64,000 nt of DNA from Polynucleobacter sp. 73C-SIWE. GTDB taxonomy: Bacteria > Pseudomonadota > Gammaproteobacteria > Burkholderiales > Burkholderiaceae. The notes below the pieces were generated by a model. It searched no databases, was not told the DNA's origin, and was given only the letters and a program-made list of their open reading frames with translations. The stretch lies in contig NZ_JACVOK010000001.1 of the NCBI RefSeq assembly GCF_018882465.1, forward strand, positions 186,001 through 250,000. Direction: 5' to 3'. The position numbers were made by a program, and so were the translations under genes. How positions within the stretch are numbered: position 1 is the first letter of the stretch; each line of letters begins with the position of its first letter. This document shows positions 44,268 to 64,000 of the stretch, piece after piece.

Positions 44268-44326
44268 TAAGCCAATGATGATTTTGATAGTCTTACGTGC
44301 ATCATTCGAATAAAAATCTTTCAGCT

Positions 44327-45142: not shown

Positions 45143-45201
45143 TTTGAGCCCACGAGATTAAAGATTAAAAATGCTAAGAAAATAGACTTTATAATAAAGG
45201 G

Positions 45202-45435: not shown

Positions 45436-45515
45436 ATCCCAAAATATATATAGGCTACCAAACATTTATCATAGTTACACTTAGTAGTTAAATTAACAAA
45501 TTACCTTAATAAAAA

Positions 45516-47636: not shown

Positions 47637-49625
47637 TTACTCATGGCTCAGTAATTCCTCTCCATGCCAATCTACCGCATTACCCTTAGATTGGTAGCCA
47701 GGTACTAATTTTTTGAGTACGTCTTCAATCAGCTGACCATCAAATGCATTTAAGGCTAAATTTAGCTTTTCAAGATCTGGCTGTAAGTCATCCCAAGATA
47801 AAAACTCTTCATGCGCCTTCATAATTTTGGGGTGGGCTGTTGGCCGTGGGTTATCACCGATAAGGAGTTCTTCATAGAGCTTTTCGCCTGGACGTAAACC
47901 AGTCACCTTAATCTCTATATCGCCATGAGGGTGAGATTCGTCCTTGACCAATAGACCCGATAAAAATACCATCTTGATAGCTAAATCATGAATCCGAACA
48001 GGTTCACCCATGTCTAATACAAATACATCACCCCCAACAGCCATGGAACTCGCTTGAATCACTAACTGCGCTGCCTCGGGGATGGTCATGAAATAACGCG
48101 TCACTTCAGAATGCGTCAAGGTAATAGGTCCACCTGCGGCAATTTGTGCACTAAACAGTGGCGCCACTGACCCTGACGAGCCGAGCACGTTACCAAAGCG
48201 CACCATCGAAAAATTGGTTGAATGGTCGTCTTTAGTGTCTGCCATGGCCTGCAAAACTAGTTCGGCAATACGCTTGCTGGCGCCCATAATATTTGTTGGT
48301 CTAACAGCTTTATCGGTGCTCACCAAAATAAAATTGCATACGCCACAGTCTAAACTCAACTGGGCGCATGTAAGCGTCCCAAATACATTATTACGAATGC
48401 CTTCGAAAGGGTTTTGCTCCACCAAAGGAACATGCTTATATGCCGCCGCATGAAAGACCGTAGTAGGCTGATGAGTCGTAAAGATTTTTAGGAGTAGATC
48501 TGCGTCACGCACCGAAGCCAAGCAAGGCACTAACTTAATCGGTAAAACCGGATGTGGCGAAAAAACTTGACCGCCAAAGTCCCTTGCCGCACTACCATCC
48601 TCCGGCCCAATAAGAACCTTCTTTAATTCTTCATAGATCAAATAGAGGGAATGCTCGCTGTTATCAATCAAAATTAAGGATTTAGGAGAAAATTTAATGA
48701 TTTGACGGCATAGCTCACCACCAATTGAACCGCCAGCACCAGTCACCAATACAACGTGGTTACGAATATTTTTTTCTAATAGATCTAGTTGAGGTGGAAC
48801 TACCTCCCTCCCGAGCAAGTCATTCATATCTAAGTCATGCAGGTCAGACGCCCTGACTCGGCCAGTAGCCAGATCATTCAGCCCTGGTAGGGTGCGAACA
48901 CGCACTCCACACCCATTAAATGAAGCGATAATTTCCTTTCTGCGATCCTGACTAGCAGAGGGAATAGCTAGAAGCACATCTGTAACATCGAGTCGATGGA
49001 TTAGAGCTTGCAGGCCAGTATTAGGGTATACATAAATTCCATTAATAGTACTTTTCTGCAGATGAAGATCATCATCAATAAAACCCTTAACCAACAGCTC
49101 CTTGTTATTGGATAAGCCAGATGCAAGCTGACGACCTGCTGACCCAGCACCATAAATCAGTGCGATAGGTTGCGCTCGGTTAAACGACTTTTGAATATTA
49201 TTAATGCTACCCAACCAATATCGCATGAAGTATCGACTTACTCCAATCCCAATAAATAGGAGGATTGGCTGAATGACGCCAATTGAGCGGGGCACGTCAT
49301 TTATTCCAAGAAGTGTAAATACACAGAAGAATAAACTGGTATAAATGATGAAAACACGCGTCATGGAGGCTAGTGCAGCCGAGCCAACATATCTAAAAAT
49401 AGCTCGATATAAGCCAAAAGCAATAAAGAGGGGGAATGAAAGCCCAATAGCGACAATGAGGACTATCCATTCCTGGACTTGAAATTGACCCCACTGATCT
49501 AAGCGAAGCCCAAAAGCCAGCCATACACTGAATGCACAAATAAGGACATCGCAATATATCACTATGCCCCGCTTGACTGAACGAGGTAGATTCAATAAAG
49601 AATGTTTGGTTACTTTAACTCGCAC
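47637..49625 (-). CDS. Membrane-bound nucleotide-sugar 4,6-dehydratase, WbpM/FlaA1 family
   Basis: A 662-residue protein: four membrane helices (about 20-40, 52-72, 85-108, 113-133), a first Rossmann domain (ALIYGAGSAGRQLASGL) and the catalytic domain from about residue 290 (VVLVTGAGGSIGGELCRQI). Conserved STDKAVRPTNIMGASKRIAEL carries the catalytic triad region. It probably converts UDP-GlcNAc to UDP-4-keto-6-deoxy-GlcNAc, as WbpM and PglF do. The start is GTG. It is the last gene of the minus-strand polysaccharide run and should feed the WbpV-like reductase. Confidence 0.92.
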   Translation of the reverse strand: MRVKVTKHSLLNLPRSVKRGIVIYCDVLICAFSVWLAFGLRLDQWGQFQVQEWIVLIVAIGLSFPLFIAFGLYRAIFRYVGSAALASMTRVFIIYTSLFFCVFTLLGINDVPRSIGVIQPILLFIGIGVSRYFMRYWLGSINNIQKSFNRAQPIALIYGAGSAGRQLASGLSNNKELLVKGFIDDDLHLQKSTINGIYVYPNTGLQALIHRLDVTDVLLAIPSASQDRRKEIIASFNGCGVRVRTLPGLNDLATGRVRASDLHDLDMNDLLGREVVPPQLDLLEKNIRNHVVLVTGAGGSIGGELCRQIIKFSPKSLILIDNSEHSLYLIYEELKKVLIGPEDGSAARDFGGQVFSPHPVLPIKLVPCLASVRDADLLLKIFTTHQPTTVFHAAAYKHVPLVEQNPFEGIRNNVFGTLTCAQLSLDCGVCNFILVSTDKAVRPTNIMGASKRIAELVLQAMADTKDDHSTNFSMVRFGNVLGSSGSVAPLFSAQIAAGGPITLTHSEVTRYFMTIPEAAQLVIQASSMAVGGDVFVLDMGEPVRIHDLAIKMVFLSGLLVKDESHPHGDIEIKVTGLRPGEKLYEELLIGDNPRPTAHPKIMKAHEEFLSWDDLQPDLEKLNLALNAFDGQLIEDVLKKLVPGYQSKGNAVDWHGEELLSHE

Positions 49626-49793
49626 GCAATGGATTATAAATTAAATAGTCAAATTAAGGTAATCCAGTATTTAATGCGACAGATGATCGATTCTCCCGTA
49701 AAAATACAGTCAGCATAATTGATGTTAAGTTCATAGCCGTCCTCTTAACTGAAATTGGCTCATAAAAATAGGGGCACATACAAGACATCCGGT

Positions 49794-50360
49794 CTAATGA
49801 GAAACTCCAGCTCGCCGAATCACCTTTAAAAAGGTTAGGCTCAGTACCTTCATATCAAGCCAAAAAGATTGATTCTGTAGATATTGCACGTCATATTGCA
49901 CTTTGAGTGGAATAGATAATTCATCTCGGCCGTTTACCTGCGCCAAACCCGTTAAGCCCGGCACTAACTTATCAACCCCATAATGTGTTCGCAATTCAAT
50001 TAAATCATCTTGATTAAACAGTGCTGGGCGTGGGCCCACAAAACTCATATCGCCAAGCAAAATACTCCATATCTGTGGTAATTCATCTAGGCTAGATTTC
50101 CGCAAAAAAGAGCCTACTGGAGTTAAGTATTGATCGGAATCAGCAAGCAAGTGAGTTGCTACAGCAGGGGTTCCAACTTGCATAGTGCGGAACTTGGGCA
50201 TCCTAAAGATAGTGTTATGTCTACCCACACGATCAGACCAATAAAGAATAGGTCCGGAGGACGTGAATTTCACTAAAAGTGAAATCACTAAAAACGGAAT
50301 AATGAAAGCAAACGTAGCCAGGATCGCCAACAAAAAATCAAATATGCGCTTTAGAAACAT
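49794..50360 (-). CDS. Initiating sugar transferase (PglC/WecP-like)
   Basis: A 188-residue phosphoglycosyl transferase that puts the first sugar phosphate on undecaprenyl phosphate. One re-entrant membrane segment ([25 protein letters not shown]), then [19 protein letters not shown], the [23 protein letters not shown] block and the [16 protein letters not shown] end. This is the short (single-domain) type. It follows the WbpV-like epimerase by 21 bp, which agrees with initiation by a QuiNAc- or similar diacetylated 6-deoxysugar. Confidence 0.93.
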
Positions 50361-50381
50361 AGTAGAAATATATACATTCCC

Positions 50382-51356
50382 TTATACGTTCGCACCTTTT
50401 TGCAAAAAAGATAAGGCGGTTAAGCGCAGACCCTCTTCAACAGTAAAAGGAGGGGTCCAATTAAGTAAACGTTTAGTTGGCTCAATATCCAACTGTAAAG
50501 AGTCGCACAAACGCCGAGCAACCCCAGGTCCGCCTATGTAACTAGCAAAAAATCTTACCCAAGCCTCAGGAAAAGGAATTAAGAATGTATGCCGATCAAG
50601 GGCTGCCCCGATACCCCTTAGTAACTCAGAAGTTGAAAGATCTTGACCATCACTCACTAAAAACGTCTGGTTTGCAGCCACTGGACTACCTATACAAACA
50701 ATCAATAGATCAACCAAATTTCCCAAAAAAACAAAGCTTCGCCTATTTTTGGTTATCCCACCAAGAGGCAAAGGATATCTTCGCAATAAACATACCATCA
50801 AAGCTAAAAAATTCGCCTTTACTCCAGGGCCATATACCAATGGCGGCCGAATTATGACCAACTCCATTTCTGAATTTTTAACCACATCCTTTAGCGCCAA
50901 CTCTGCTTCGCACTTACTAACACCATAGGGGTCTTGAGGGTTTGGAGCATCTTTGGCGGTAAAAGGTATACCCAACTCAGTAAAGTCTCCATTTACTTTT
51001 ATAGAGCTCATGTAAATAAATCGTCTAACGCCCGACCTTCTGGCCTGAATGGCAAGATTTAAGGTTGAGGTAACGTTATCAATGCGATATTGATCTATCG
51101 AATTGATAGCTGAATCAGTCAAAATATGAGCCCTAGCAGCAAGATGAATTACGGTATCAATGCCAATCAAGCACTCACCCCACTCTTGCTGGGAGCTCAA
51201 ATTTCCCATAGATGCGTAACTTAAATTTGGATTGCGAATAGCATTAGGATCCCTAGAGCGTACTACTGATAGCACCTGAAATCCTTCACTTAAGAGGCGA
51301 GAGATTAATCCGAGGCCTACAAAACCATTTGCCCCAGTAACTAAAATTTTGTTCAT
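50382..51356 (-). CDS. NAD-dependent epimerase/reductase, WbpV-like
   Basis: An extended short-chain dehydrogenase of 324 residues. The N-terminus has ILVTGANGFVGLGLISRLL, the active-site segment YMSSIKVNG and YGVSKCEAELAL (YxxxK). Placement next to an initiating transferase and a WbpM-like dehydratase suggests the 4-keto reduction that gives UDP-QuiNAc, as for WbpV. A generic UDP-sugar 4-epimerase remains possible. It is upstream of the transferase on the same strand. Confidence 0.85.
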   Translation of the reverse strand: MNKILVTGANGFVGLGLISRLLSEGFQVLSVVRSRDPNAIRNPNLSYASMGNLSSQQEWGECLIGIDTVIHLAARAHILTDSAINSIDQYRIDNVTSTLNLAIQARRSGVRRFIYMSSIKVNGDFTELGIPFTAKDAPNPQDPYGVSKCEAELALKDVVKNSEMELVIIRPPLVYGPGVKANFLALMVCLLRRYPLPLGGITKNRRSFVFLGNLVDLLIVCIGSPVAANQTFLVSDGQDLSTSELLRGIGAALDRHTFLIPFPEAWVRFFASYIGGPGVARRLCDSLQLDIEPTKRLLNWTPPFTVEEGLRLTALSFLQKGANV

Positions 51357-51426
51357 TATTAGATCTCATTATTGCCAATAAAAATCTGAGAAATTAATCC
51401 ATTAATTATTTGCGAATTATAAAAAA

Positions 51427-52308
51427 TTACCGCAGATTTTCACCATGCAGACTTTTATGAATCTCCATATGTGGAGCAATATTCCAATCCACCGAACGCG
51501 CAGCATCAGTTACAGTCAAAAATGTGAAATCGGCTATTAAACAGCGCAACTTTCTTAGTGAACCACCTAATCCTACATAAGATTTAAATCTTCGAGCGAT
51601 AGTGAGGTTATTCATCATGGGCTGATCTGGATCAAAATCTCTTGGATGAAAGTACATCATGTTGTAATTTGATTTATCCATGAAGTATTTTATAAGAAAG
51701 TAGGGAAGAATTCTAAAATATCCTCCACCAGAATACATTAAATTGCCGCCCAAAAAGGGGGCAGAGCCAATAGGAAGCTCTTTAATAAGAGACCCGCTCG
51801 GAGTCTTTATAAGGAATGGCTTGTTAAATCCATTTTTTTTTATACCACCAAAATCATGGGGGCCAGAAAAAACTGAGCAATCTATCTCAACACCATGATC
51901 CAATAAAATATCAAGCGCCCAAGAATTTTTCTCACAAATACTAAAAGCTGGGGCCCTATAAATCTGCACTTTTTTTGAAATACAGTCCTCAAGTATCTTA
52001 ATCGAACTTGAAATATCTTCCTTAACGCTCATCTTATCCATGCTAGTTAAAAGTCGATGAGAAAATGAATGTGAACCAATTTCGTGCCCCCTTCTATCGA
52101 TCTCGGTAATTAAACTAGGGTAGCGCTCAACTACCCAGCCGAGGCAAAAAAAGGAAGCTTTAATATCAACTTCATCAAGAAGATTTAATAGGGTCATAAC
52201 CGAATCCACAACTCTGCTCGGATATTCAGAACAGCTGACTCCCTCAAAGAATCCTTGATCGAACCGAATATGAAACCAATCCTCCACATCAAAACTCAAT
52301 ATATTCAT
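51427..52308 (-). CDS. XrtA/PEP-CTERM-associated polysaccharide deacetylase
   Basis: NodB-fold deacetylase of 293 residues from ATG 52308 (MNILSFDVEDWFHI). The DxE metal motif is at FDVEDW, the conserved histidines are in GHEIGSHSFSHRLL, and RAPAFSICEKNSWALDILLDHG follows. The C-terminal DUF3473 part contains NYNMMYFHPRDFDP. This subgroup belongs to exosortase (XrtA)-linked exopolysaccharide loci. No exosortase or PEP-CTERM gene is in the window. It probably removes N-acetyl groups from a surface polymer. Confidence 0.88.
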   Translation of the reverse strand: MNILSFDVEDWFHIRFDQGFFEGVSCSEYPSRVVDSVMTLLNLLDEVDIKASFFCLGWVVERYPSLITEIDRRGHEIGSHSFSHRLLTSMDKMSVKEDISSSIKILEDCISKKVQIYRAPAFSICEKNSWALDILLDHGVEIDCSVFSGPHDFGGIKKNGFNKPFLIKTPSGSLIKELPIGSAPFLGGNLMYSGGGYFRILPYFLIKYFMDKSNYNMMYFHPRDFDPDQPMMNNLTIARRFKSYVGLGGSLRKLRCLIADFTFLTVTDAARSVDWNIAPHMEIHKSLHGENLR

Positions 52309-52425
52309 TGAAATACCTTTATATGCCAATCAATAGCGAAAGCTAACACCTAAAAATCAAATAGATTGTAGATACAGCGGTAAACTATCCTCTATATTCA
52401 GAATATATAAAAAATCTTTACAATC

Positions 52426-53202
52426 TCAAGGGACATCTATTGTGTCTATATCCAGCTCTGCAATTGCCTCGGTTATTCTGGCTTCAAGAAAAGAGGTATT
52501 ACTACAAAGTAAAACATAACCAAATTTCTTTGGCTTAATCAATGCCGATGGAATTCGAATAAAAAACATACCCGGCGGCTTGGCTGCTAAAGTAAAACAC
52601 AACGATAGAAGACTGCCGCCATAAACACAGCTTCTACCTAAAAGTGAAACGAATGGAGGTGGCTTTGAGAAAAATCCATTGGGGGGTCGGATTACACTCC
52701 AAAGAAAGGCATCTCCCTTTTTTTTCATAAAGATCCTCCAAAGAAGTGGCACCCCCACAAAAGGGTAAATTGAGCCTGCCATTCTCCAACCAAGTCTTCG
52801 TTGTCGAATAAGCGCAATATTTTCATTTGGATAACCACACACAGCCACAACCCCGCCTCTAGAAAGGTAGCCATACAAATAATTGCCAAGCCTAACTGTT
52901 GCATTCACCATAATCCCTTTCGACATCGTATCAGTAGATAAAAATATGTTTTTATCTCCAATCGCTAGAATCAACCCAGAATAACAGGCAACAATCTTCC
53001 GATCAACCAAGCCAAAACAAAAAATAGATCCATCCCCATGGAGGACATATTTTCTAAATATTGATTCAGCTTGATTTTCATTTTTCTTAAAGCAATGACA
53101 AAAGAGTTGAATCCATGCCACCTTTTCGTCAATTGATAATGCACTAACACCGTGTCTCAGAATAATATCGGGATTCTTCTGGTCATTCATAATGAAATTC
53201 AT
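52426..53202 (-). CDS. GNAT-like acyltransferase
   Basis: A 258-residue protein resembling GNAT-fold N-acetyltransferases seen in exopolysaccharide loci. Weak landmarks are KNENQAESIFRKYVLHGDGSIFCFGLVDRKIVACYSGLIL (strand region) and VRLGNYLYGYLSRGGVVAVCGYPNENIALIRQRRLGW, which is similar to the acetyl-CoA-binding side of sugar acyltransferases. Its start overlaps the GT4 stop by 4 bp (ATGA). The exact reaction is unknown. Confidence 0.6.
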   Translation of the reverse strand: MNFIMNDQKNPDIILRHGVSALSIDEKVAWIQLFCHCFKKNENQAESIFRKYVLHGDGSIFCFGLVDRKIVACYSGLILAIGDKNIFLSTDTMSKGIMVNATVRLGNYLYGYLSRGGVVAVCGYPNENIALIRQRRLGWRMAGSIYPFVGVPLLWRIFMKKKGDAFLWSVIRPPNGFFSKPPPFVSLLGRSCVYGGSLLSLCFTLAAKPPGMFFIRIPSALIKPKKFGYVLLCSNTSFLEARITEAIAELDIDTIDVP

Positions 53203-54434
53203 TCAAAATTACGGGCTTTAATTTCGCCCATATTAGATAGCAAAAATTTTATTAGGCGACTCTTGTTAAAATTACGATCAGCATATAAAACACCATGAGC
53301 ACCCATATGAGCCCTTTCTTCAAGACTCATACTTTTTATCTTCAATATACTTTCTGCTAAACCTTTTGAATCACCCGCTCCAACAACCAATGCAGCGCAT
53401 GATTCTTTAAGAACTCTAGAGCCTTCGCCATCGAGCATGCCAACTATTGGCTTACCCATTGAAAGGTAGGTTTGAACTTTTCCGGGAAGTGCGGTTGAAA
53501 ATACAGGACCGCTCCGAAGCGATACAAGCAGAGCTGATGCACGCTCATATATGTATGGCATGCTATTTGAGGGGTACGGACCCAAAATCCTCACCACGTC
53601 CCCCAACCCCAAAATCAGTATTTCCTTATTCAACCATTCTCGAACTCTTCCATGTCCAATCAAATATATTGTTACGCACATACCCTTTAGCAACTTTGCG
53701 GCATTCAATACAGATTCAAAATCTTGACTTTCGCCAAAATTACCGGCGTACACAACATTAAATTCATCAGTTGACAGCGGATACTTAAACTCAGAATCTG
53801 AAATAATATTAGACTTATCAATGCATGTGGATTCAACCCATTGCGGGAAATATATTGGATTTAATTGCTTTGGAGCATACTTTGTTACTGAAGACAGAAA
53901 TCCAAGGGATGATATGTATATTCGATCAGTATTTTTATAGATCCACATTACCAAATATTCAAACATTTTGAAGATTAGCCCCTTTTTGATAACCTTCATG
54001 GCAATAAGCGCCTCAGGCCAAAGATCCAAAACCCAAACACTTAACTTTGCCAAATTTTGACGCTTGAGCAGAATGGCTGGAAGTACTGCGGTAATTGGCG
54101 AGGTCTGAAAAACAAAAATCTCATCAAACTTTTCTTTTCTCAAGAGAATAGAACCTAGAATAGAGCCAGATATTACAAAACTTATATAGTTAAGGACTAA
54201 GCGAGTTTTTGTCCCGCCCCTTAAGATAATTGGCACCCTATAGACCCTAATACTTTTGTAATAAGAGTATTTTTTAGGATCTTTTTTAAATTCAGAAAAA
54301 ATTTTTCCTGATGGGTAATTAGGTAAACCCGTCAATACAGTTACCTGACATCCATGATCTGCAAGCCCTTTAACCAACTCATTTATCCTAAAATTTTCGG
54401 GCCAAAAATATTGAGAAACAACAAGTATTTTCAT
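53199..54434 (-). CDS. Family 4 glycosyltransferase, WbuB-like
   Basis: A 411-residue GT-B glycosyltransferase. It starts MKILVVSQYFWPENFRINELVKGLADHG, has the membrane-proximal helix ILLKRQNLAKLSVWVLDLWPEALIAMK, and the donor-binding C-terminal YAGNFGESQDFESVLNAAKLLKG and VSLRSGPVFSTALPGKVQTYLSMGKPIVG. It is close to WbuB, which adds L-FucNAc in E. coli O26. That is a good match to the L-FucNAc genes just upstream. The acceptor is inferred. Confidence 0.88.
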   Translation of the reverse strand: MKILVVSQYFWPENFRINELVKGLADHGCQVTVLTGLPNYPSGKIFSEFKKDPKKYSYYKSIRVYRVPIILRGGTKTRLVLNYISFVISGSILGSILLRKEKFDEIFVFQTSPITAVLPAILLKRQNLAKLSVWVLDLWPEALIAMKVIKKGLIFKMFEYLVMWIYKNTDRIYISSLGFLSSVTKYAPKQLNPIYFPQWVESTCIDKSNIISDSEFKYPLSTDEFNVVYAGNFGESQDFESVLNAAKLLKGMCVTIYLIGHGRVREWLNKEILILGLGDVVRILGPYPSNSMPYIYERASALLVSLRSGPVFSTALPGKVQTYLSMGKPIVGMLDGEGSRVLKESCAALVVGAGDSKGLAESILKIKSMSLEERAHMGAHGVLYADRNFNKSRLIKFLLSNMGEIKARNFE

Positions 54435-54594
54435 AATACTGCTATTATCGCGAGGCCAGATATTCCCTTCCGCCTAATTTCGTGAGAAAAATTAAATCTC
54501 TTTAAAAAACAGGGAGTGGCCCAAGAAATCACAATTATGACATTTCGATATAAATGTGCTTTCAGATTGATTGCGGTCAATTGCCTGGCAAGCA

Positions 54595-55731
54595 TCAGTA
54601 CTCTTTCCAAACCACTCGCCTTACATAATCTGTGTAACTATGGAGAATACGAATAATCTTTTCTGAAACATTTGGGACACCATAATCCTTCACCAAAAAA
54701 ATGTTTCTATTTATTCCTGTAAGTTGTGAATTGAGAATTGATAGCCCCTGTAGAACTCGGTCAACATTTAATCCAACCATCATTACAGCCGCCTCCTCCA
54801 TCCCCTCGGGTCGTTCGTGCGCCTCCCGCAAATTCAAAGCGGGGAAATTTAATACTGATGACTCTTCATTAATCGTTCCGCTATCAGACAGCACCGCTCT
54901 TGCAGACATCTGTAACTTTACATAATCAAAGAATCCTAATGGCTTTAACAATTTGACCAGTGGGTGGAATTTTATACCGGCAGCATCCACTCGTTTTTGA
55001 GTTCGGGGGTGGGTTGAAACTATTACCGGCAAATAAAAGTCCTCCGCAAGAATATTTATAATATTGACAATATTGATAAAATTTTTATCCGATTCAATAT
55101 TCTCCTCGCGATGAGCACTGACCACAAAATAATTATGCCTACTAACCTGAAGACGCTCAAGCACATCTGATGACTCAATCTGCGGCAGATAGTATTGCAA
55201 TACCTCATACATTGGGCTCCCAACCTTAATCACTTGGTCCGGAGGAAGGCCCTCTCGCAAAAGGTAATCGCGAGCATTTGTACTATATGTTAGATTAATA
55301 TCAGATATATGATCGACAATTCTACGATTAGTCTCCTCTGGCACACGCATATCGAAACATCTATTGCCAGCCTCCATATGGAAAATAGGTATTTTACGTC
55401 GTTTTGCGGGGATTACAGACAGGCAACTATTAGTATCGCCAAGTACTAATATTGCATCAGGCTGTACATCAGCCAAAACTTTGTCAACTGAAGTGATCAA
55501 GTTGCCTATTGTGTTGGCAGAACTTACGCTACCATTAGCGCTCCCTAGAAAATAGTCCGGCTCACGTACCCCAAGATCGTCAAAGAAAATTTGATTTAAT
55601 TCATAGTCGTAATTTTGACCAGTATGAATCAAAATATGTTCGCAGTGCTTATCTAAACCGGCAAGAATACGAGATAAACGAATAATCTCCGGCCGCGTGC
55701 CCACAACAGTTACGACTTTTAATTTTTTCAT
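54595..55731 (-). CDS. fnlC: UDP-sugar C2 epimerase, FnlC/CapG
   Basis: A 378-residue enzyme of the WecB (UDP-GlcNAc 2-epimerase) family. MKKLKVVTVVGTRPEIIRLSRIL, HTGQNYDYELNQIFFDDLG, HMEAGNRCFDMRVPEETNRRI and LSDSGTINEES carry the family's catalytic residues. The RCFDxRVPEE variant is typical of FnlC/CapG, which makes UDP-L-FucNAc by C2 epimerisation of UDP-L-PneNAc. It follows fnlB by only 2 bp, confirming the pathway. Confidence 0.92.
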   Translation of the reverse strand: MKKLKVVTVVGTRPEIIRLSRILAGLDKHCEHILIHTGQNYDYELNQIFFDDLGVREPDYFLGSANGSVSSANTIGNLITSVDKVLADVQPDAILVLGDTNSCLSVIPAKRRKIPIFHMEAGNRCFDMRVPEETNRRIVDHISDINLTYSTNARDYLLREGLPPDQVIKVGSPMYEVLQYYLPQIESSDVLERLQVSRHNYFVVSAHREENIESDKNFINIVNIINILAEDFYLPVIVSTHPRTQKRVDAAGIKFHPLVKLLKPLGFFDYVKLQMSARAVLSDSGTINEESSVLNFPALNLREAHERPEGMEEAAVMMVGLNVDRVLQGLSILNSQLTGINRNIFLVKDYGVPNVSEKIIRILHSYTDYVRRVVWKEY

Positions 55732-55733
55732 GG

Positions 55734-56852
55734 CTATAACTTCATTAGATAGGGGAAGGTATCTGGCTTATTTCGATCAAATATCTCATTTGCCCACAAC
55801 ATTACAAACATTTCATCATTTCCAATATTGGTAATATCATGCGCCCACCCAGGTATGGTATCAACAACCTTAGACTCTTCGCTTGATACATCAAATTCAA
55901 TAGTATGGCCATTTAGAATATGACGAAATCTAAAATGCGCGCGACCTTTAATAACAAGAAACTTTTCCGTTTTAGTATTATGAAAGTGCCCCCCACGCGT
56001 CACTCCAGGCTTTGCAGTAAAGTAGGATACTTGCCCAGAATTTTCCGTCTTAATCATTTCTACAAATGAGCCTCGTGCATCACAATATCTTGGGACCGAA
56101 TAAGAAAACTCCTCATGCGGCAAGAAGCTAAGATAAGTTGCATAAAGAGCCCTCATCAAACCCGATCCAACCTGATGAACATTCAATTCAAGGCGGCCAG
56201 CCTTGAATGCCTGAATACATGACGCCAACTCTCCTATGGTTATGGTGTACTGAGGCAAAACAGAATGGTATTCATGAACTTGCAGGCCTTCATCGCCATT
56301 TAGTAACTTGATAAACTGATCTACTACATCATCCACATATACAAGCGTTATCTTTGTAGCAGGATCATTTATCTCAATTGGAATATTACGAGCCAAATTG
56401 TGACAATATGTGGCGACGACTGAATTGTAATTTGGCCTAGACCACTTACCAAATATATTTGGAAGACGAAATATATAAGCGGTTATTTGATTTTTTTGCT
56501 GAAATTTACATATAACATTTTCGGCATTGCGCTTGCTTATCCCATATGGATTATCAAGAATGGCTTGGGTAGATGAAGCATAAATTATAGAGATTCTTCG
56601 CCTACTATCTGCAATTGCATTACATAGTGCTTCAGTAAGCTCAATATTATCCGCTACAAATCCAGCTTGATCTCGGGGTCGATTCGCACCCGCCAAATGA
56701 AAAACAAAGTCGACGTTTTCCAATAAACATGGCAACTGCAGTAAATTATTTCTTCGAGTAAAAGAAATAATCTCCACTTCTTTAATCTTATCCAAATATG
56801 AGCAAAGATTTTTTCCTAGAAATCCATCGGCTCCTGTAACCATTACTCTCAT
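55734..56852 (-). CDS. fnlB: Bifunctional reductase/epimerase with cupin, FnlB/CapF
   Basis: A 372-residue protein from the ATG at 56852 (MRVMVTGADGFLGKNLC). The N-terminal SDR domain has YASSTQAILDNPYGISKRNAE, and the C-terminal cupin (about 245-372) has VTRGGHFHNTKTEKFLVIKGRAHFRFRH with metal-type histidines. CapF/FnlB performs epimerisation at C3 and reduction at C4 in the UDP-L-FucNAc route. The gene is between lfnA and fnlC on one transcript. Confidence 0.93.
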   Translation of the reverse strand: MRVMVTGADGFLGKNLCSYLDKIKEVEIISFTRRNNLLQLPCLLENVDFVFHLAGANRPRDQAGFVADNIELTEALCNAIADSRRRISIIYASSTQAILDNPYGISKRNAENVICKFQQKNQITAYIFRLPNIFGKWSRPNYNSVVATYCHNLARNIPIEINDPATKITLVYVDDVVDQFIKLLNGDEGLQVHEYHSVLPQYTITIGELASCIQAFKAGRLELNVHQVGSGLMRALYATYLSFLPHEEFSYSVPRYCDARGSFVEMIKTENSGQVSYFTAKPGVTRGGHFHNTKTEKFLVIKGRAHFRFRHILNGHTIEFDVSSEESKVVDTIPGWAHDITNIGNDEMFVMLWANEIFDRNKPDTFPYLMKL

Positions 56853-56934
56853 AAACTTCAACTGAACCTATATTGTGTGTTTGCAATAAATATCTTCGAC
56901 CATTTTGGCAGATCTACAGGGCTATTAAAACCCA

Positions 56935-58080
56935 TCATTTAAAATATCTTTTTTCTAAGCCTATTGATCGCAATATTTTTGCTCCAAAACCAATTACCCA
57001 TCTTTTATTTCTATAATCTCTATATGTTTTCAAAGGGATCTCAAATAAATTTTGCAATTCTAACGTTGTCAACCCCAGCTTATGTGCTACGTACTCGAAT
57101 TCCTGGCTAAGAAATTGCTCATCCATTTCTGGCTTTAAAAGCCTGACTATAGCCTGCTCACGTGTCATCTGCCCTGTCACAATTAAACTTGAGAAGTGGG
57201 CTCTACGCTTCTGATACCCAAATCGCCTTGGAAGCCAATAATCCTCATAAAATCTTGTAAATCTTGATTCATGGTGTTTATGCTTAAACTTTTGCCAACC
57301 ATATAAACGCTCCAATTCATCCTCAGCATCCTTCTTAATGTAGGAAACGAGATTTAAAGGGGAGTGCAACTTCATACCTAATATTATCTGATACCAAAAC
57401 TTATAAATGAAAATATCGGTCAGTGTAAAAATAATCGGCCTACCATTACCGAACTTATTCCATATGTCATCAAATAACCTTTTGTCAATACCCAAGTATC
57501 CGCCCCACTCTTCTGGTTCACGACAACATTCAGTTGAAAAATTTCCACCTTTGATAATATGTTTGATGCCATATTGCCGCGCAAACTTATAGAGCGCAGA
57601 AAAGAAGGCTGCGTCCTGAACTAAATCTTGGTCAGGAATCCCAGAGCGTAAAAACGCCACCTGCATTGACTTTACCCCCTCCCAATCAACAACTTCAGTG
57701 AACAAATCAAGCTCAAGACCATCAACAAGTTTTTCTATATTACTCACAGCCTGCGCAGTATTCCATCCAGCATCTACATGAACAAGCAATGGTCGCAAGC
57801 CCATTTTTGTCTTTGCGATATACGCAGCATATGAACTATCAAGTCCGCCACTAATTCCAATAATGCAATCAAAATCTTTCCCTTTACCATCCTTGCGAAT
57901 TTTGCTCGCCAAAGTCATTAGTTCAACTTCGCTCCCCTGGTTAATTGTCCAGTTAGGAAGAATTGATGATTTAAAATTTTGGCAATAATTACATTCACCC
58001 AATTCATCAAATTGAATGCTAGGGTCGGAAGTGTCCATGATGCAGTTAGAGCAGATTTGATAAGGACGATTTACTTGCAT
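56935..58080 (-). CDS. lfnA: N-acetyl-sugar amidotransferase, LfnA/WbpG-like
   Basis: A 381-residue PP-loop ATP-pyrophosphatase enzyme. Two cysteine pairs (C10/C13 and C30/C33) form a zinc site, and ISGGLDSSYAAYIAKT (about 77-83) is the PP-loop. KGGNFSTECCREPEEWGGYLGIDKRLF is family-specific. It uses ammonia from HisH2/HisF2 to turn an N-acetyl group into an acetamidino group. With fnlABC next to it the expected product is UDP-L-FucNAm, as LfnA makes in P. aeruginosa O12 and E. coli O145 clusters. Confidence 0.9.
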   Translation of the reverse strand: MQVNRPYQICSNCIMDTSDPSIQFDELGECNYCQNFKSSILPNWTINQGSEVELMTLASKIRKDGKGKDFDCIIGISGGLDSSYAAYIAKTKMGLRPLLVHVDAGWNTAQAVSNIEKLVDGLELDLFTEVVDWEGVKSMQVAFLRSGIPDQDLVQDAAFFSALYKFARQYGIKHIIKGGNFSTECCREPEEWGGYLGIDKRLFDDIWNKFGNGRPIIFTLTDIFIYKFWYQIILGMKLHSPLNLVSYIKKDAEDELERLYGWQKFKHKHHESRFTRFYEDYWLPRRFGYQKRRAHFSSLIVTGQMTREQAIVRLLKPEMDEQFLSQEFEYVAHKLGLTTLELQNLFEIPLKTYRDYRNKRWVIGFGAKILRSIGLEKRYFK

Positions 58081-58081
58081 C

Positions 58082-59293
58082 TCAATGTTTTCTTGTTAAT
58101 TTAGAGTAGAGGTTCTGGTATGCATCAACCATAACATCCTTTGAATAATTAGTAGTAGCAAAAAATCTACATTCATTTTCTGACCTCATAGACGCAAGCC
58201 CATGATAATTTTTCCTCAGCAGCGACTCTAAAGCTCCCAAGTCTCCATATGGAACAAATTCTCCAAACCCATCTGGCGCTACCTCTACTGGCGCTCCCGC
58301 ATCAAAACCGATAATCGGTCGTCCGCAAGCAAGACTTTCAGCGCAAACCATAGAAAAAGTTTCCTTAGCACTAGTAAGGAGAATCACTTTAGCTAATGAA
58401 TAATATTTGGAAAGAAGAATTTGGTCATAAACGGCGGCCACCAACCTAACATTAGAAGGCACTGGGATCCCTAACTCTTTTACTCCCACCATCACAAAAG
58501 TCATCTCAGGATTCCGCTCCGCCAGGGTCAACACCCATCGACCTCCTTTAGCCTCTGAGAGCAAATCAGAACCAACCGATAAAACCACATATTCATGATT
58601 TATCCCTAACTCGTATCTCAGGATGTCGGACTCTCGAGGACTGAAGATTTCGGTATCTAAACCATTGGGAATAACAGAGATAGATCTACCATTTAATATG
58701 GGTGACTTTCTCATTCTATTTGCAAGCCAACTAGAAGGGGCTACGAGAGATAAATGCTCAAAATCTTCAAACATTTGCTGCTTTTGATCGAACATGAGTG
58801 CAGTAAAGTCTAAAACCCAACTTTTTGGATACCCTGCTAAATTTGGGCAAGCGTTGCAATGGCTTTTCCATTTCTCACAATCGAGCGCATGCCCGCATTT
58901 CCCCGTATACATAAATTCACTATGAAATGTCCAAACTGTTGGGATGTTATTTGACTTAAGGTAGCCAACAAGTTCGCTAATATTGATAAAGTAACCGTGT
59001 AAGTCATGAAGATGAACTACATCAGGCTGAAATTCAGTCAATAATCTAATTAAATTGCGAGTTGCCAGAGGAGAATAGATGCCAGTTAGACCCGTTAATC
59101 TTGTTGCAAAAGCATGCAGTAAAACCTCTGTGCTGGAGCTAATTTTATGCACATTTGGTGTATCTTGATCGGGCCCTCGACCAAAATAAGCGGCAGTTTC
59201 ATGCCCCCTCAACTTAAGACCGGTTATCAGATCAAAAACTATCTTACCGGTGCTGCTAGAGAGATAATTTACGTCGACTTGCGCGATTTTCAT
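58082..59293 (-). CDS. Family 4 glycosyltransferase
   Basis: A 403-residue GT-B glycosyltransferase from the ATG at 59293 (MKIAQVDVNYLSSSTGKIVF). The acceptor half includes PDVVHLHDLHGYFINI and VWTFHSEFMYTGKCGHALDCEKWKSHCNACP, with a cysteine-rich insertion of the colanic-acid-type transferases (WcaC/WcaL-like style). The donor site is in LSVGSDLLSEAKGGRWVLTLA and SAKETFSMVCAESLACGRPIIGFDAG (E-x7-E region). It lies 2 bp before lfnA on the same transcript. Donor sugar unknown; L-FucNAm is a candidate. Confidence 0.9.
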   Translation of the reverse strand: MKIAQVDVNYLSSSTGKIVFDLITGLKLRGHETAAYFGRGPDQDTPNVHKISSSTEVLLHAFATRLTGLTGIYSPLATRNLIRLLTEFQPDVVHLHDLHGYFINISELVGYLKSNNIPTVWTFHSEFMYTGKCGHALDCEKWKSHCNACPNLAGYPKSWVLDFTALMFDQKQQMFEDFEHLSLVAPSSWLANRMRKSPILNGRSISVIPNGLDTEIFSPRESDILRYELGINHEYVVLSVGSDLLSEAKGGRWVLTLAERNPEMTFVMVGVKELGIPVPSNVRLVAAVYDQILLSKYYSLAKVILLTSAKETFSMVCAESLACGRPIIGFDAGAPVEVAPDGFGEFVPYGDLGALESLLRKNYHGLASMRSENECRFFATTNYSKDVMVDAYQNLYSKLTRKH

Positions 59294-59574
59294 TAGCGAA
59301 TTAATCGTTAATTGAACCAAAAATCCATCAGGGGCAATATATAAGCATTTGCAATCATAATGACGAAATTAAGCAAAGGGGGAACCCAATAAGTTACTAA
59401 ATTATATTGTGGGCAAGTTAATATTTCGTGGCACTCGACTTTTTCTCATTTAAAAAACATGCTATCAATATGAGAATTTAAGCGACTACTCAAGATAATG
59501 CTCTAGTCACGTTTAACGGGCCATGCAATTCAAGCTTCAAAGAATCCACATTAGCTCTTTTCCTGCACAAATCA

Positions 59575-60597
59575 TCAATGTTCAAATGCATTATTCTCTT
59601 TAACGGCCTCTAATAATTTTAGCTTTTTTAACAAGGCTGTCACCCCGAAAATATCTAATTGAGTGGTGTTATTGGAGTTATAGTCAGAGATCTCTGCAAT
59701 GCTTGCCTCCCCTTCCTCTACATACTTACCATAATTTAAGTCCCGCAAATCGGGACGAATTCGATAATAGCGGCCAAGATCATCTGCGCAAAAATTTTCC
59801 TCGCGACTTAATAAGGCCTCTGATTGCTTTTCACCATGACGAGTACCTATTACCCTAATTTCATGGTCTGGAGTATCAAATAAATTCGCTAAGGCGAGAG
59901 CCAAAGTGGAGATAGTACACGCCGGAGACTTTTGAACAAAAATCTCTCCAGCCCCTCCAGTTTGAAATGCAAATAAGACCAAATCTACAGCATCATCAAG
60001 AGTCATCATAAAACGCGTCATTTTTGGATCCGTTATTGTTATTGGAATTCCAGAAAGAATTTGCCCAACAAATAGCGGAATAACAGAACCACGTGAAGCC
60101 ATCACATTCCCATAACGTGTTATGCATATAGTAGTCGCATCACTCTCCCGAGACTTTGCAACAGCGACTTTCTCCATCATGGCCTTAGAGATTCCCATTG
60201 CATTTATTGGGTAGACGGCTTTATCTGTGCTGAGACAAACCACACGCTCTACACCACTGCTTATAGCGGCCTCAAGCACATTTTCGGTACCCAACACATT
60301 AGTTTTGACGGCCTCAAGCGGGTAAAATTCACACGAGGGAACTTGCTTTAACGCTGCCGCATGAAAAACAAAATTTACGCCTATCATTGCAGCTTTGATG
60401 CTCGATGGATCGCGGACATCTCCAATATAAAATTTAAGCTTAGGATGATTAAATTTTTTGCGCATATCATCTTGCTTTTTTTCATCGCGACTAAATACTC
60501 TAATTTCAGCAATATCAGTATCAATAAAGCGATTTAGAACTGAATTTCCGAAGGACCCAGTGCCCCCCGTTATTAACAAGGTTTTATTCGCAAACAT
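59575..60597 (-). CDS. fnlA: UDP-GlcNAc 4,6-dehydratase/5-epimerase, FnlA/CapE
   Basis: A 340-residue soluble SDR that starts the UDP-L-FucNAc pathway. MFANKTLLITGGTGSFGNSVLNRF, AALKQVPSCEFYPLEAVKTNVLGTENV, LSTDKAVYPINAMGISKAMMEKV and TRYGNVMASRGSVIPLF are typical. The absence of membrane helices separates it from the WbpM-like protein at 47637. CapE/FnlA gives UDP-2-acetamido-2,6-dideoxy-L-arabino-4-hexulose. It is located 2 bp after the hisF2 gene, with about 250 bp of non-coding sequence separating it from the next gene of the run. Confidence 0.94.
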   Translation of the reverse strand: MFANKTLLITGGTGSFGNSVLNRFIDTDIAEIRVFSRDEKKQDDMRKKFNHPKLKFYIGDVRDPSSIKAAMIGVNFVFHAAALKQVPSCEFYPLEAVKTNVLGTENVLEAAISSGVERVVCLSTDKAVYPINAMGISKAMMEKVAVAKSRESDATTICITRYGNVMASRGSVIPLFVGQILSGIPITITDPKMTRFMMTLDDAVDLVLFAFQTGGAGEIFVQKSPACTISTLALALANLFDTPDHEIRVIGTRHGEKQSEALLSREENFCADDLGRYYRIRPDLRDLNYGKYVEEGEASIAEISDYNSNNTTQLDIFGVTALLKKLKLLEAVKENNAFEH

Positions 60598-60599
60598 TC

Positions 60600-61397
60600 T
60601 TAGGGCCTATTATTCATAGAATAAAGCGGGGAACTCTCAAACAAATTATATCGCTGAGCCAATGTCGGATAATTAATTAAAACAGCGCGAAATACGCCTT
60701 TAAATACAAAAAGACTTCCAGCGCCCGCCCCAATAACACCGCATTCTTTTATTAAACTTTTTATATCATCCAGACGACCGGCCCCGCCAAGAATAGTCAG
60801 CGGCACGCCTATGGCATCCCTCATTTGCTTAGCCAAAACCAAATCATAGCCGGTCATTGCCCCGTCCAAGTCGACTGAATTAACTAATATCTCCCCAGCC
60901 CCAAGTTTCTCAGCTTGAATTGCAAAATCAACCGCCCTAATACTAACGGCGTATTGGCTATTTTTTCTAAAAACCTCATATTCACCGGTTATAGAATTGT
61001 ATTTGACATCAATAACCACCACGACGCTTTGAGATCCTACCTCTTGAGCAATATCTGTAATAAGCTCAGGACAGTCAATCGCTGCGGAACTTAAAGCAAC
61101 TTTCTCAATGCCGAAAGTTATAATTCTTCTTGCTTGTTGAATATTTTTTATTCCACCCCCGTAACACAAAGGCATTCTGCATTCTGCTGCCAATTTCTCA
61201 ATAAGCCGATAATTCGGGTCGGCATTTGTAATTGAAGCGTCAATATCAAAAACAGTTAGCTCATCAGTTTCTTTTTCATTAAAAATACGCACCGCGTTAA
61301 TGGGGTCTCCGACATATCTCGGATTTTTAAATTCCTGAGTTTTAACCAAAGCACCATTGGATAGAAGCAAACACGGTATGATTCGTGGACTTAACAT
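60600..61397 (-). CDS. hisF2: HisF-like imidazole glycerol phosphate synthase cyclase homologue
   Basis: A 265-residue TIM-barrel protein from the ATG at 61397 (MLSPRIIPCLLLSNGALVKT). It is the HisF2/WbpI-type paralogue, in which the usual catalytic CLDVKDG reads CLLLSNG, so it is not expected to make histidine. VVVVIDVKYNSITGEYEVFRKNSQYAVSI and ILVNSVDLDGAMTGYDLVLAKQM, ILGGAGRLDDI are other conserved barrel parts. It channels ammonia from HisH2 to the amidotransferase LfnA. It begins 1 bp after the hisH2 stop codon. Confidence 0.9.
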   Translation of the reverse strand: MLSPRIIPCLLLSNGALVKTQEFKNPRYVGDPINAVRIFNEKETDELTVFDIDASITNADPNYRLIEKLAAECRMPLCYGGGIKNIQQARRIITFGIEKVALSSAAIDCPELITDIAQEVGSQSVVVVIDVKYNSITGEYEVFRKNSQYAVSIRAVDFAIQAEKLGAGEILVNSVDLDGAMTGYDLVLAKQMRDAIGVPLTILGGAGRLDDIKSLIKECGVIGAGAGSLFVFKGVFRAVLINYPTLAQRYNLFESSPLYSMNNRP

Positions 61398-61398
61398 T

Positions 61399-62013
61399 TT
61401 ATAGTTTTGCAAAATTCTCTAATAGCCTAACCCCAGCATGGTGACTTTTCTCAGGGTGGAATTGGACGCCATATATATTGCGGGAAGAAATGGCGCTTGT
61501 AAAGCCTATCCCGTATTCAGTGGTCCCAATAGAATTCATCTCATCCGAGCACTCAAAAAAATATGAATGCAAAAAATAAAATCTTGGGGCTACAGATATT
61601 CCATCAAATAGTGGAGACGATATTTCAGGTACAACTTGATTCCAGCCCATATGAGGTCTTGGCAACCCTAAAGATGTAACTTTAGAGGCGAATGAAATAA
61701 CTCTACCAGGTACAAAATTAAGCCCAGGCATACATCCCTCTTCACTAGACGCAGCTAAAATTTGCATTCCAACGCACACGCCTAAAATTGGCACCCCATC
61801 ATTAAGCACCAATGATTCCAATACCGGCCTCATGCCGGACATATTTAACTTTGAAATAGCGTGGTCAAAAGAGCCTACACCAGGCAAAACTATTTTGGAT
61901 GCACCTTCCAATTGCTCGGGGGTTGATGCTCGGGCCGCTTTCAAACCCATACTCTTGTATAGATTTAAAAAAGCCTGAATATTTCCAAGTCCGTAGTCAA
62001 CCACATGAATCAT
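61399..62013 (-). CDS. hisH2: HisH-like glutamine amidotransferase
   Basis: A 204-residue class I glutamine amidotransferase. The catalytic triad is C80 (ILGVCVGMQIL), H186 and E188 (VQFHPEKSHH). MIHVVDYGLGNIQAFLNLYKSMG at the start is typical of HisH. It produces ammonia for HisF2 and LfnA in the acetamidino-sugar pathway rather than for histidine. It is followed within 2 bp by hisF2. Confidence 0.93.
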   Translation of the reverse strand: MIHVVDYGLGNIQAFLNLYKSMGLKAARASTPEQLEGASKIVLPGVGSFDHAISKLNMSGMRPVLESLVLNDGVPILGVCVGMQILAASSEEGCMPGLNFVPGRVISFASKVTSLGLPRPHMGWNQVVPEISSPLFDGISVAPRFYFLHSYFFECSDEMNSIGTTEYGIGFTSAISSRNIYGVQFHPEKSHHAGVRLLENFAKL

Positions 62014-62038
62014 CTGAATGATATTTACTTAATTTATA

Positions 62039-63148
62039 TTATTTCTTGGCAATAATAGCAGCATGTATAGATGGAATATCTCCTATTTCGCAATAATGAC
62101 CTTCTAAACTTAGAATTAAATTCAGCAGATTTAGATCATCAGGATTTCCAGAATCATAATTTGAAATAAATTTATCGTCAAGTGCATATGCAACTATGGA
62201 ACCATTATAGGGGTATACGGTTACATCAGTAAAAACGCTTTTCAACACTGAAATAATTTCACTAGACCTAATGCCCTCTGATGGATCTCCTTTTTTAATA
62301 TTTTCAGGGCTTATATCAAAAACTTTGCTGTAATTAAATTCTTTTTTATTTGAAAAATATTTTAAAATAATTTTATTTATTGAAATAATTACATTTGTAA
62401 TTTTATTGGTATTAATATTATACCTTTCAAATACAGATGAAATATCTAAATTCCTAAAATTATAAATTATAAATAATAATAACTTAAATTTTTTATATTT
62501 CAGTTTGGGTGGTACAAAATTTTTCTCTGAAAAATTCTTAAGTCGATCTGGTATCAAATGAATTACCGAATTTATAATTTCTCGATGTCGAAATGATAGA
62601 TCCGAATAGTTTGGCCCTATATATTCATCGCAGAATAATAATCCACCCTTCTTTAAGGATGCGTAGACCTGGTTAAACAAGTGCTCCAAATTTGCAATGT
62701 GATGTGCGCCACCCGCAATATAAATTAAATCATATAACTCAACACCAAGAGAGCAACTATTCAAATCAGCTGTTTGATAATGGATATTATTAATTCCAGA
62801 TAAGTTTCTTAGCCGCTTCGCACTCGCTATTGCTGCAGTGCTTACATCCATACCAATGCAATTTTTAAATACACCTAACTGATTCAATCTTCTATCGCGC
62901 GAGCCATGTCCGCAACACAGACTCAAACAAAGACCTACCGGCGCATTTTTTCCAAGGTACTTATTTTTAAACCAGCTCTCAAGCCAATCATCATTTGGGT
63001 TTTGAGTTTCAGCACCCGTGACTAATTTTTGAAAATATCTCCTAATCGGTAAAAAGCTGTAAATATCAAGAGCGGAATTATGGCGGGACTCCCGCCCCCA
63101 GAAATCGCTTACCTGCTTTAAATTATCTTGAGAAAAATTTGTAGTCAA
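62039..63148 (-). CDS. Class I SAM-dependent methyltransferase
   Basis: A 369-residue AT-rich protein. The SAM motif is CLSLCCGHGSRDRRLNQLGVFKNCIGMDVSTAAIASAKR (about 72-110), then DLIYIAGGAHHIANLEHLFNQVYASLKKGGLLFCDEYIG. A long C-terminal part (about 200-369) of unknown role is rich in Asn, Lys and Ile. It begins by overlapping the stop codon of the FkbM gene by 4 bp. Its target may be a sugar of the surface polysaccharide. Confidence 0.82.
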   Translation of the reverse strand: MTTNFSQDNLKQVSDFWGRESRHNSALDIYSFLPIRRYFQKLVTGAETQNPNDDWLESWFKNKYLGKNAPVGLCLSLCCGHGSRDRRLNQLGVFKNCIGMDVSTAAIASAKRLRNLSGINNIHYQTADLNSCSLGVELYDLIYIAGGAHHIANLEHLFNQVYASLKKGGLLFCDEYIGPNYSDLSFRHREIINSVIHLIPDRLKNFSEKNFVPPKLKYKKFKLLLFIIYNFRNLDISSVFERYNINTNKITNVIISINKIILKYFSNKKEFNYSKVFDISPENIKKGDPSEGIRSSEIISVLKSVFTDVTVYPYNGSIVAYALDDKFISNYDSGNPDDLNLLNLILSLEGHYCEIGDIPSIHAAIIAKK

Positions 63149-64000
63149 TTTCTGATTTTCTGCACAAGTATGTTTATATTATCTCTTTTGGAATATAAAT
63201 CTATCAATTCAAAATCTCGCGGTATTTCGATATCAATCTCACCCCGGTATATTATAGTAAATTTGTTAAATCCTAATTCTTTTAAAATATTAAAAATATT
63301 TACTCTAGATGAACCATTCTCATTCATTATTTTTCTATTATACTCAAATATCAGTTTAATATCAGGATTTTCACTTATAATTTTTCTCATCCCTATTATT
63401 GCCTGATACTCAGCCCCCTCTATATCCATCTTTACAAGATTAATTTTTTTTATACTATTAATAATCGCGTATTTATCAATACTAATAGTTTTAATTTTTA
63501 TTAGATTTTCAACACCTTCATCAAATTGAGAAATCTTATTACATTCAGATGAATCGCTGTTAACAATAAAATTAACATTCTTACTGCAATCAGAGACCCC
63601 AAAACTCTCTACAGTAATGATATTTTTTAGACCATTATCTATAACATTTTTATCTAGTGTATCTCGCGTTGCCGGGGTTGGCTCAAAAGCATAGACGTGG
63701 CCCGTCTCACCAACAATTCTTGCTGCGATTAAAGCGTAAAATCCAATATGACTTCCAAGATCTAAAAAAATATCCCCTTTTTTAAGAATTCTTTCTACGA
63801 CCCTTCTTGTCGCCTCCTCATAATCATTATTTGTTTTAATAAAATTAATTAAACTATAATCATCTTTTAAATAATTTATTTTAAATCCATTATGATGTAT
63901 AAAATATTTATCATTATCCTTTAATATTCCTAGCCTTCTAATAGAAATATCTAAATTAACTAGATAATTTCCAAAATATAAGTCTATGAAAGGTCTTTTA
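63145..64000 (-). CDS. FkbM-family methyltransferase, partial
   Basis: The frame is open to the right edge of the window, so the N-terminus lies outside. About 284 residues are visible. The SAM-binding motif is IFLDLGSHIGFYALIAARIVG, followed by VYAFEPTPATRDTLDKNV and the FkbM hallmark LVKMDIEGAEYQAIIGMRKII. The C-terminus ends NINILVQKIRN. It overlaps the downstream methyltransferase start by 4 bp. FkbM proteins methylate hydroxyls of sugars or polyketides, and here a sugar target is likely. Very AT-rich. Confidence 0.9.
   Translation of the reverse strand, partial: KRPFIDLYFGNYLVNLDISIRRLGILKDNDKYFIHHNGFKINYLKDDYSLINFIKTNNDYEEATRRVVERILKKGDIFLDLGSHIGFYALIAARIVGETGHVYAFEPTPATRDTLDKNVIDNGLKNIITVESFGVSDCSKNVNFIVNSDSSECNKISQFDEGVENLIKIKTISIDKYAIINSIKKINLVKMDIEGAEYQAIIGMRKIISENPDIKLIFEYNRKIMNENGSSRVNIFNILKELGFNKFTIIYRGEIDIEIPRDFELIDLYSKRDNINILVQKIRN

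Follow-up and report, generated by a model that had tools for sequence, protein, structure and literature searches.

A predicted cassette for UDP-L-FucNAc and L-FucNAm synthesis with an unusual gene order in the surface-glycan locus of Polynucleobacter sp. 73C-SIWE

We analyzed a stretch of 64,000 nucleotides from Polynucleobacter sp. 73C-SIWE, hereafter called the window, which corresponds to positions 186001-250000 of contig C2 in a 2.0-Mb genome of four contigs. The window carries six genes, fnlA, fnlB, fnlC, lfnA, hisH2 and hisF2, whose products are predicted to make UDP-linked N-acetyl-L-fucosamine (UDP-L-FucNAc) and its acetamidino form (L-FucNAm). Read downward from position 62013 on the minus strand, the order is hisH2-hisF2-fnlA-GT4-lfnA-fnlB-fnlC-GT4, in which GT4 stands for a family 4 glycosyltransferase (GT).

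The hisH2 gene (61399-62013) encodes a class-I glutamine amidotransferase, a HisH paralogue that is the predicted ammonia source, and hisF2 (60600-61412), of the AglZ/HisF2/WbuZ family, encodes a TIM barrel without the cyclase residue Asp11, the predicted ammonia conduit. Next come fnlA (59575-60597; CapE/WbjB), for a UDP-GlcNAc 4,6-dehydratase/5(3)-epimerase, and a GT4 gene lying within the cassette (58082-59320; Pfam Glyco_transf_4 and Glycos_transf_1), which was overlooked in the preliminary description of this DNA. They are followed by lfnA (56935-58080), also called wbuX, for a PP-loop N-acetyl sugar amidotransferase (NASAT); by fnlB (55734-56861; CapF/WbjC), for a 4-keto reductase with a C-terminal polysaccharide-biosynthesis domain (PF14667); and by fnlC (54595-55731; CapG/WbjD), for a non-hydrolysing C2-epimerase that would give UDP-L-FucNAc. 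The last GT4 gene (53199-54434), WcaI-like but under the cut-off of that model, stands in the position of the Pseudomonas aeruginosa PA7 (serotype O12) transferase and is the candidate L-FucNAm transferase.

Five of the six cassette proteins scored over an NCBIfam cut-off, the exception being FnlA, which is considered below. The scores were 257.1 bits for LfnA with the WbuX model TIGR03573 (cut-off 203.2), 356.6 for HisF2 with the AglZ/HisF2 model NF038364 (310), 554.4 for FnlB with NF047837 (500) and 200.2 for HisH2 with TIGR01855 (105.4). FnlC scored 227.7 with the WecB model TIGR00236 (210.15), a general 2-epimerase model whose label is also assigned to FnlC of Escherichia coli and PA7. With the narrower WbuZ model TIGR03572, HisF2 reached 274.7, under the cut-off of 299.7, and the controls from E. 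coli (268.5) and PA7 (291.3) were likewise under it. The E. coli and PA7 orthologues that we scanned receive the same NCBIfam labels as the window proteins. Identity to the proteins of E. coli O118/O151 was 71% for LfnA and FnlA, 68% for FnlC, 55% for HisF2, and 49% for HisH2 and FnlB; LfnA is also about 67% identical to its PA7 homologue. With FnlB over its cut-off and FnlA and FnlC this close to E. coli, the fnlABC set is complete. The preliminary description had placed all six genes on one strand, and this is confirmed; the open reading frames (ORFs) are intact, full-length and without internal stops, and the NCBIfam matches and the E. coli identities agree with the names given to them. Separate histidine-pathway hisH and hisF genes lie at 478.9-481.1 kb of the same contig. 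The window pair is therefore not needed for histidine, and we rejected a role for it in histidine biosynthesis.

The catalytic residues were then compared with those of 80 other loci, the best-scoring ones of a pattern scan in genome_contigs among the matches listed; several are metagenome-assembled genomes or short contigs, and counts over them express association, not prevalence. LfnA has the PP-loop SGGLDS at residues 77-82 and the zinc-site residues Cys10, Cys13, Cys30 and Cys33. The PP-loop pattern was found in 85 of the 86 amidotransferases of the window and these loci. The HisH2 triad (Cys80, His186, Glu188) is kept in all 81 proteins compared. HisF2 has Leu at the column of HisF Asp11 and keeps Asp130, again in 81 of 81; the numbering is that of HisF, with Asp11 taken by us to be the cyclase aspartate. 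This pattern is as expected of a barrel that would pass ammonia on without closing an imidazole ring. We modelled LfnA with AlphaFold2 (mean predicted local distance difference test score, pLDDT, 86.2), and the best PDB match of the model was the Legionella amidotransferase 8wex (E 3.2e-14). The structure report describes zinc bound at the tetracysteine site and suggests ATP to AMP + PPi chemistry (PMC10607449).

In order to clarify the substrate type of LfnA, we considered an amidotransferase tree together with the neighbours of each gene. The tree held 152 of 158 rows, six having been left out for length (outside 300-520 amino acids); it was a quick tree with support from the Shimodaira-Hasegawa-like approximate likelihood ratio test (SH-aLRT) only, and neighbour labels refer only to the DNA examined around each locus. 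The window LfnA fell inside a clade of 86 rows with the E. coli and PA7 proteins (SH-aLRT 100), and 79 of these rows come from loci with both fnlA and fnlC. A larger LfnA clade of 97 rows (SH-aLRT 100) takes in six more fnl-linked rows and five without the link. Among rows without the fnl pair, five have a WbpB-type gene and 29 a NeuB-type gene, and one of each lies inside the LfnA clade, in otherwise fnl-linked groups. Six fnl-labelled rows fall outside the LfnA clade; each is an additional amidotransferase of a different kind from a locus in which an LfnA is present as well. The assignment of the enzyme to the LfnA type in the preliminary description is thus upheld by the tree, where it groups with the fnl-linked proteins and not with WbpG/PseA.

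The gene neighbourhoods told the same story. Of the best 80 loci, 75 combine fnlA and fnlC with lfnA-hisH2-hisF2; all six genes were recognized by the thresholds used in 51, and only a recognizable fnlB was wanting in 24. When seven fnlB-less loci were inspected, five had a divergent FnlB-like gene (30-35% identical) between fnlA and fnlC. No fnlB relative was detected in the other two loci, L129 and L134, in which fnlC directly follows fnlA (L129:13459-15586, L134:11811-13944); there the 4-keto reduction would be carried out by another enzyme, or the product would be different. The fnl genes were not found in the examined DNA of five of the best 80 loci, that DNA being only 9.4 kb for L084 and 5.5 kb for L114. 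We also searched the window and the following 36 kb (L163/L164, the contig to 286 kb) at E 1e-5, with no WbpB-, WbpD- or WbpE-type match to Massilia queries; no NeuB-type match was obtained in the same DNA with one Azospirillum query, the rest of the genome not being searched. The tree, the neighbours and this homology search of 100 kb led us to reject pseudaminic and legionaminic acid readings, as well as the WbpG-type reading discussed below.

Given the neighbours, the tree and the failure to detect rival synthesis genes in the 100 kb searched, the product is best predicted, by a wide margin, to be L-FucNAm. Whatever the stage of amidination, we consider it highly probable that the cassette serves L-FucNAm in a lipid-linked surface polysaccharide. 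The catalytic steps that we infer are as follows. FnlA, FnlB and FnlC would convert UDP-GlcNAc to UDP-L-FucNAc. HisH2 would release ammonia from glutamine, and HisF2, without cyclase activity, would channel it through its barrel. LfnA would use ATP to activate the N-acetyl carbonyl, so that nitrogen replaces oxygen and an acetamidino group is formed. One of the two GT4 enzymes (53199-54434 or 58082-59320) would then add the sugar to an oligosaccharide begun by the sugar-1-phosphate transferase encoded at 49794-50360.

Several observations weigh against this assignment. FnlA scored 569.1 with TIGR04130, under the cut-off of 730, which the E. coli O118/O151 FnlA passes with 763.6; the same cut-off is also missed by FnlA of PA7 (677.1) and of a Sphingomonas plasmid (605.1). 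The structural match of the LfnA model to 8wex is moderate, with a template modelling (TM) score of 0.63 and 17% identity. Among fnl-linked loci at 60% or more identity, 18 also have a NeuB-type gene and two a WbpB-type gene, co-occurrences that loci for several sugars would be expected to show. The loci of a sister clade of LfnA relatives are without fnlABC, so membership of the family alone does not fix the substrate. The gene order of the window departs from the usual one in that lfnA is not first; the usual order is typical but is not needed for the chemistry. Finally, the preliminary description had spoken of a WbuB-like transferase. The GT4 at 53199-54434 lies outside the range then described. 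Its best BLAST segment with the E. coli gene in the WbuB position, whose annotation says no more than family 4 glycosyltransferase, had only 22% identity over 172 columns; with the PA7 transferase in the same place, identity was 43% over 402 columns. That is, the enzyme is of the P. aeruginosa O12 type, and the WbuB likeness has to be given up.

The stage at which the amidine would be formed deserves separate consideration. LfnA-type proteins have at their C-terminus a basic amphipathic helix. In the model of the window LfnA it comprises residues 360-372, and its hydrophobic moment is above that of 99% of the protein's own 13-residue stretches. Over the last 26 residues, net charge averaged +6.1 in 86 LfnA-type proteins, against +3.7 in 11 intermediate proteins and +1.1 in 61 NASATs of other types. 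Such a helix agrees with the wording of King et al. 2008, whose title terms the LfnA and WbuX proteins membrane-associated. Both the helix and that title are points in favour of a reading in which the same enzymes act but what they amidinate is lipid-linked L-FucNAc or the growing oligosaccharide. We regard this as unlikely, though not negligibly so, because membrane attachment is compatible with a soluble UDP-sugar substrate and because a report on Aeromonas attributes UDP-L-FucNAm synthesis to fnlABC/wbuX, as an annotation (PMC6124807). Amidination on UDP-L-FucNAc is clearly favoured over amidination on the lipid-linked sugar.

The gene order was compared with that of known fnlABC-lfnA-hisHF clusters, as the preliminary description had proposed. 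The order in the window differs from that in the other loci examined. The usual core order, lfnA-hisH2-hisF2-fnlA-(fnlB)-fnlC, occurs in 74 of the best 80 loci, and a GT-lfnA pair between fnlA and fnlB was seen in the window only, among 85 loci compared, 79 of them with fnl genes; the six loci without fnl genes are uninformative on order. In Atopomonas (L080), where the order is the usual one, lfnA is immediately preceded by a GT that is 49% identical to the GT4 at 58082-59320, and the GT and lfnA may have been relocated together. A gap of 254 bp separates fnlA from this GT4 gene, and BLAST against the loci fetched for comparison revealed no relict gene in it. The best matches of hisH2 and hisF2 are in another genome of the genus (G035), those of lfnA, fnlA, fnlB and fnlC mostly in Burkholderiales (Nitrincola for lfnA), at 57-78% identity. 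The matches being split in this way, no single donor of the cassette can be named. The unique position of lfnA and the 254-bp gap might suggest that rearrangement has broken the amidine branch, leaving a scrambled cassette that makes only L-FucNAc. This is very improbable, for all genes are open and full-length, the catalytic residues are intact, and lfnA is still 72-75% identical to its closest relatives.

A cassette of the WbpG type on a Massilia plasmid (L057) likewise contains a NASAT, HisH and HisF2; its neighbours are a nucleotide-sugar dehydrogenase, a Gfo/Idh oxidoreductase, an acyltransferase and an aminotransferase, not fnlABC. One rival reading makes the window enzyme a WbpG-type amidotransferase of a UDP-ManNAc3NAcA-like sugar and assigns the fnl genes to another residue. 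We regard it as scarcely credible: TIGR03573 does span NASATs of several substrate types without separating them, a WbpB-type gene does occur in the two fnl-labelled loci mentioned above, and L084, on its short contig inside the LfnA clade, does have a WbpB-type gene and no fnl genes, but four of the five WbpB-linked fnl-free rows lie outside the 97-row clade, the Massilia protein is only 38% identical to LfnA, and the window and L163/L164 gave no WbpB/D/E-type match.

The L-FucNAm assignment is also consistent with the comparison with known systems. The PA7 locus (L094) shares with the window lfnA, hisH2, hisF2, fnlA, fnlB and fnlC, a GT4 of the same subfamily (43%), a short-chain dehydrogenase/reductase (SDR) gene (48%) and a WbpM-like dehydratase (47%). 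In contrast to PA7, the window has lfnA behind fnlA together with an extra GT4, and its last GT is followed by an ORF that fits no family and then by a deacetylase-like gene, neither of which matches the PA7 stretch. The priming enzyme also differs, being a 188-residue sugar-1-phosphate transferase in the window and a PF00953 glycosyltransferase in PA7. A NeuB homologue is present in the examined PA7 region, whereas the search of the window gave none. The E. coli O118/O151 cluster (L002) has the same six enzymes, 49-71% identical, in the order amidotransferase-hisH-hisF2-fnlA-fnlB-fnlC-GT, the last two enzymes being labelled wbjC and wecB by the NCBI annotation pipeline (PGAP); its last GT is a distant GT4 relative of the window GT4. 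The wbuX gene of E. coli O145 we take from papers only, the cluster compared here being that of O118/O151. PA7 belongs to serotype O12, and its O-antigen locus is reported as 99.4% similar to the O12 locus over 24 kb (PMC2809737). The authors of an O12 study propose the acetamidino group as a contributor to the way adhesion responds to pH (PMC11637443), which may hint at why a bacterium would keep such a group. No report on the O-antigen genes of Polynucleobacter was found, by title and abstract start, among the Polynucleobacter literature mentioning O-antigen.

Two further features of the family emerged from the comparison. The first concerns the zinc site. The tetracysteine zinc motif is given as characteristic of the amidotransferase family in the structure report (PMC10607449). 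Of the 86 rows sharing 60% identity or more with the window LfnA, 61 have the motif CCCC, 24 CTSY and one CTSC. CTSY, that is, the loss of three of the four zinc-site cysteines, was found in all 24 Bacteroidota LfnA proteins (L101, L108, L111, L114, L115, L117, L119, L120, L122-L127, L130-L133 and L135-L140), and CCCC is retained in the four NASATs of other types that we checked from these Bacteroidota loci. The CTSC protein, from Achromobacter (L103), has lost two of the cysteines.

The second feature is the sister clade, which consists of five rows at 47-51% identity (SH-aLRT 97) whose loci lack fnlA and fnlC; one of them belongs to the window's own genus (G105). Four of the five genomes had no FnlC relative at E 1e-60, and the fifth (G626), whose locus is ended by a contig end, had one of 48% identity on another contig. 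All four loci with full context (L035:2216-9866, L204:8877-16597, L216:1348-9129 and L229:1746-10118) have the order amidotransferase, hisH2, hisF2, a fusion of alcohol dehydrogenase (ADH) and Gfo/Idh domains, a heparinase II/III-like gene and a GT4 gene, with one extra gene ahead of the heparinase-like gene in L229. The fusion proteins are 58-74% identical to that of L204. The fusion occurs in 18 of 398 genomes, and 13 of these 18 are not among the 42 that bear an amidotransferase; the amidotransferase and fusion counts come from 398-genome samples with the same tallies. The fusion being often without an amidotransferase, it is part of a wider module. A literature search combining heparinase, bi-domain and O-antigen gave no match. 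The gene content of these loci suggests that the sister branch has a second LfnA substrate. Somewhat doubtfully, we put forward the idea that the LfnA type is a membrane-tethered branch split by substrate, with L-FucNAm in the window branch and another, undescribed sugar made via the ADH/Gfo-Idh fusion and the heparinase-like protein in the sister branch, and with a zinc site that is dispensable and has been lost in a whole phylum.

We next describe the surroundings of the cassette. Past the last GT4, the stretch 51427-53202 holds a pair of ORFs (52426-53202 and 51427-52329), comprising one without NCBIfam or Pfam match and then a deacetylase-like one of the XrtA-system type (TIGR03006, 236.5 bits, under the cut-off of 276.2). 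They are followed on the minus strand by the SDR sugar reductase/epimerase gene (50382-51356), matching the PA7 gene in the same position over its length; the polyprenyl-phosphate sugar-1-phosphate transferase, the priming enzyme (49794-50360; TIGR03025, 219.3 bits, under the full-length cut-off of 295.55); and the WbpM-like nucleotide-sugar 4,6-dehydratase (47637-49625), again placed as in PA7. Beyond the window, the same strand carries more glycan genes, among them those for GalE and for an ABC transporter resembling PglK/MsbA, which scores under the PglK cut-off. Judged from this gene content, the region is a large surface-glycan locus, whose product would be an O-antigen or a capsule. The guanine-plus-cytosine (GC) content is 41-47% over the first 44 kb of the window and 30-44% over the glycan locus (44001-64000), with a minimum of 30% at 62-64 kb, a drop of the kind that is common in exchanged surface-glycan genes. 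Near the ABC transporter, some 13.5-14.8 kb beyond the window end, an ORF (L163:17550-18752) contains an (AAT)n run encoding a poly-asparagine tract, possibly variable in length; judged by eye the ORF is chain-length-regulator-like, and it had no NCBIfam match at 1e-8. Scans for promoters and terminators gave 37 and 9 sites where 36.1 and 7.6 were expected, and we base no claim on them.

As for distribution, an amidotransferase over the cut-off was found in 15 of 186 genomes of the window's genus and, for any substrate type, in 41 of 398 genomes of a Pseudomonadota sample, both counts including the window's genome. Within the genus, the same FucNAm set was present in only one (G035) of 16 stretches from 15 other genomes. 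The best 80 LfnA loci range from Pseudomonas and Aeromonas to Chryseobacterium and a planctomycete. The sugar had been called rare, which does not agree with the 75 loci noted above; the word describes the state of knowledge, not the distribution of the cassette. That is, the system is an already known one with a widespread gene set, and what is unusual here is the gene order.

In conclusion, these findings extend a pathway for a charged sugar, known from work on pathogens, to an environmental and probably freshwater bacterium with a small genome. The positive charge of the amidine would alter the surface charge of the cell and perhaps its receptors for phages and grazers. The tree, the neighbours and the C-terminal helix together separate FucNAm-type amidotransferases from WbpG-type and legionaminic/pseudaminic-type ones, so annotations can name the sugar. 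The natural zinc-less LfnA enzymes and the sister branch offer material for testing a little-studied mechanism.

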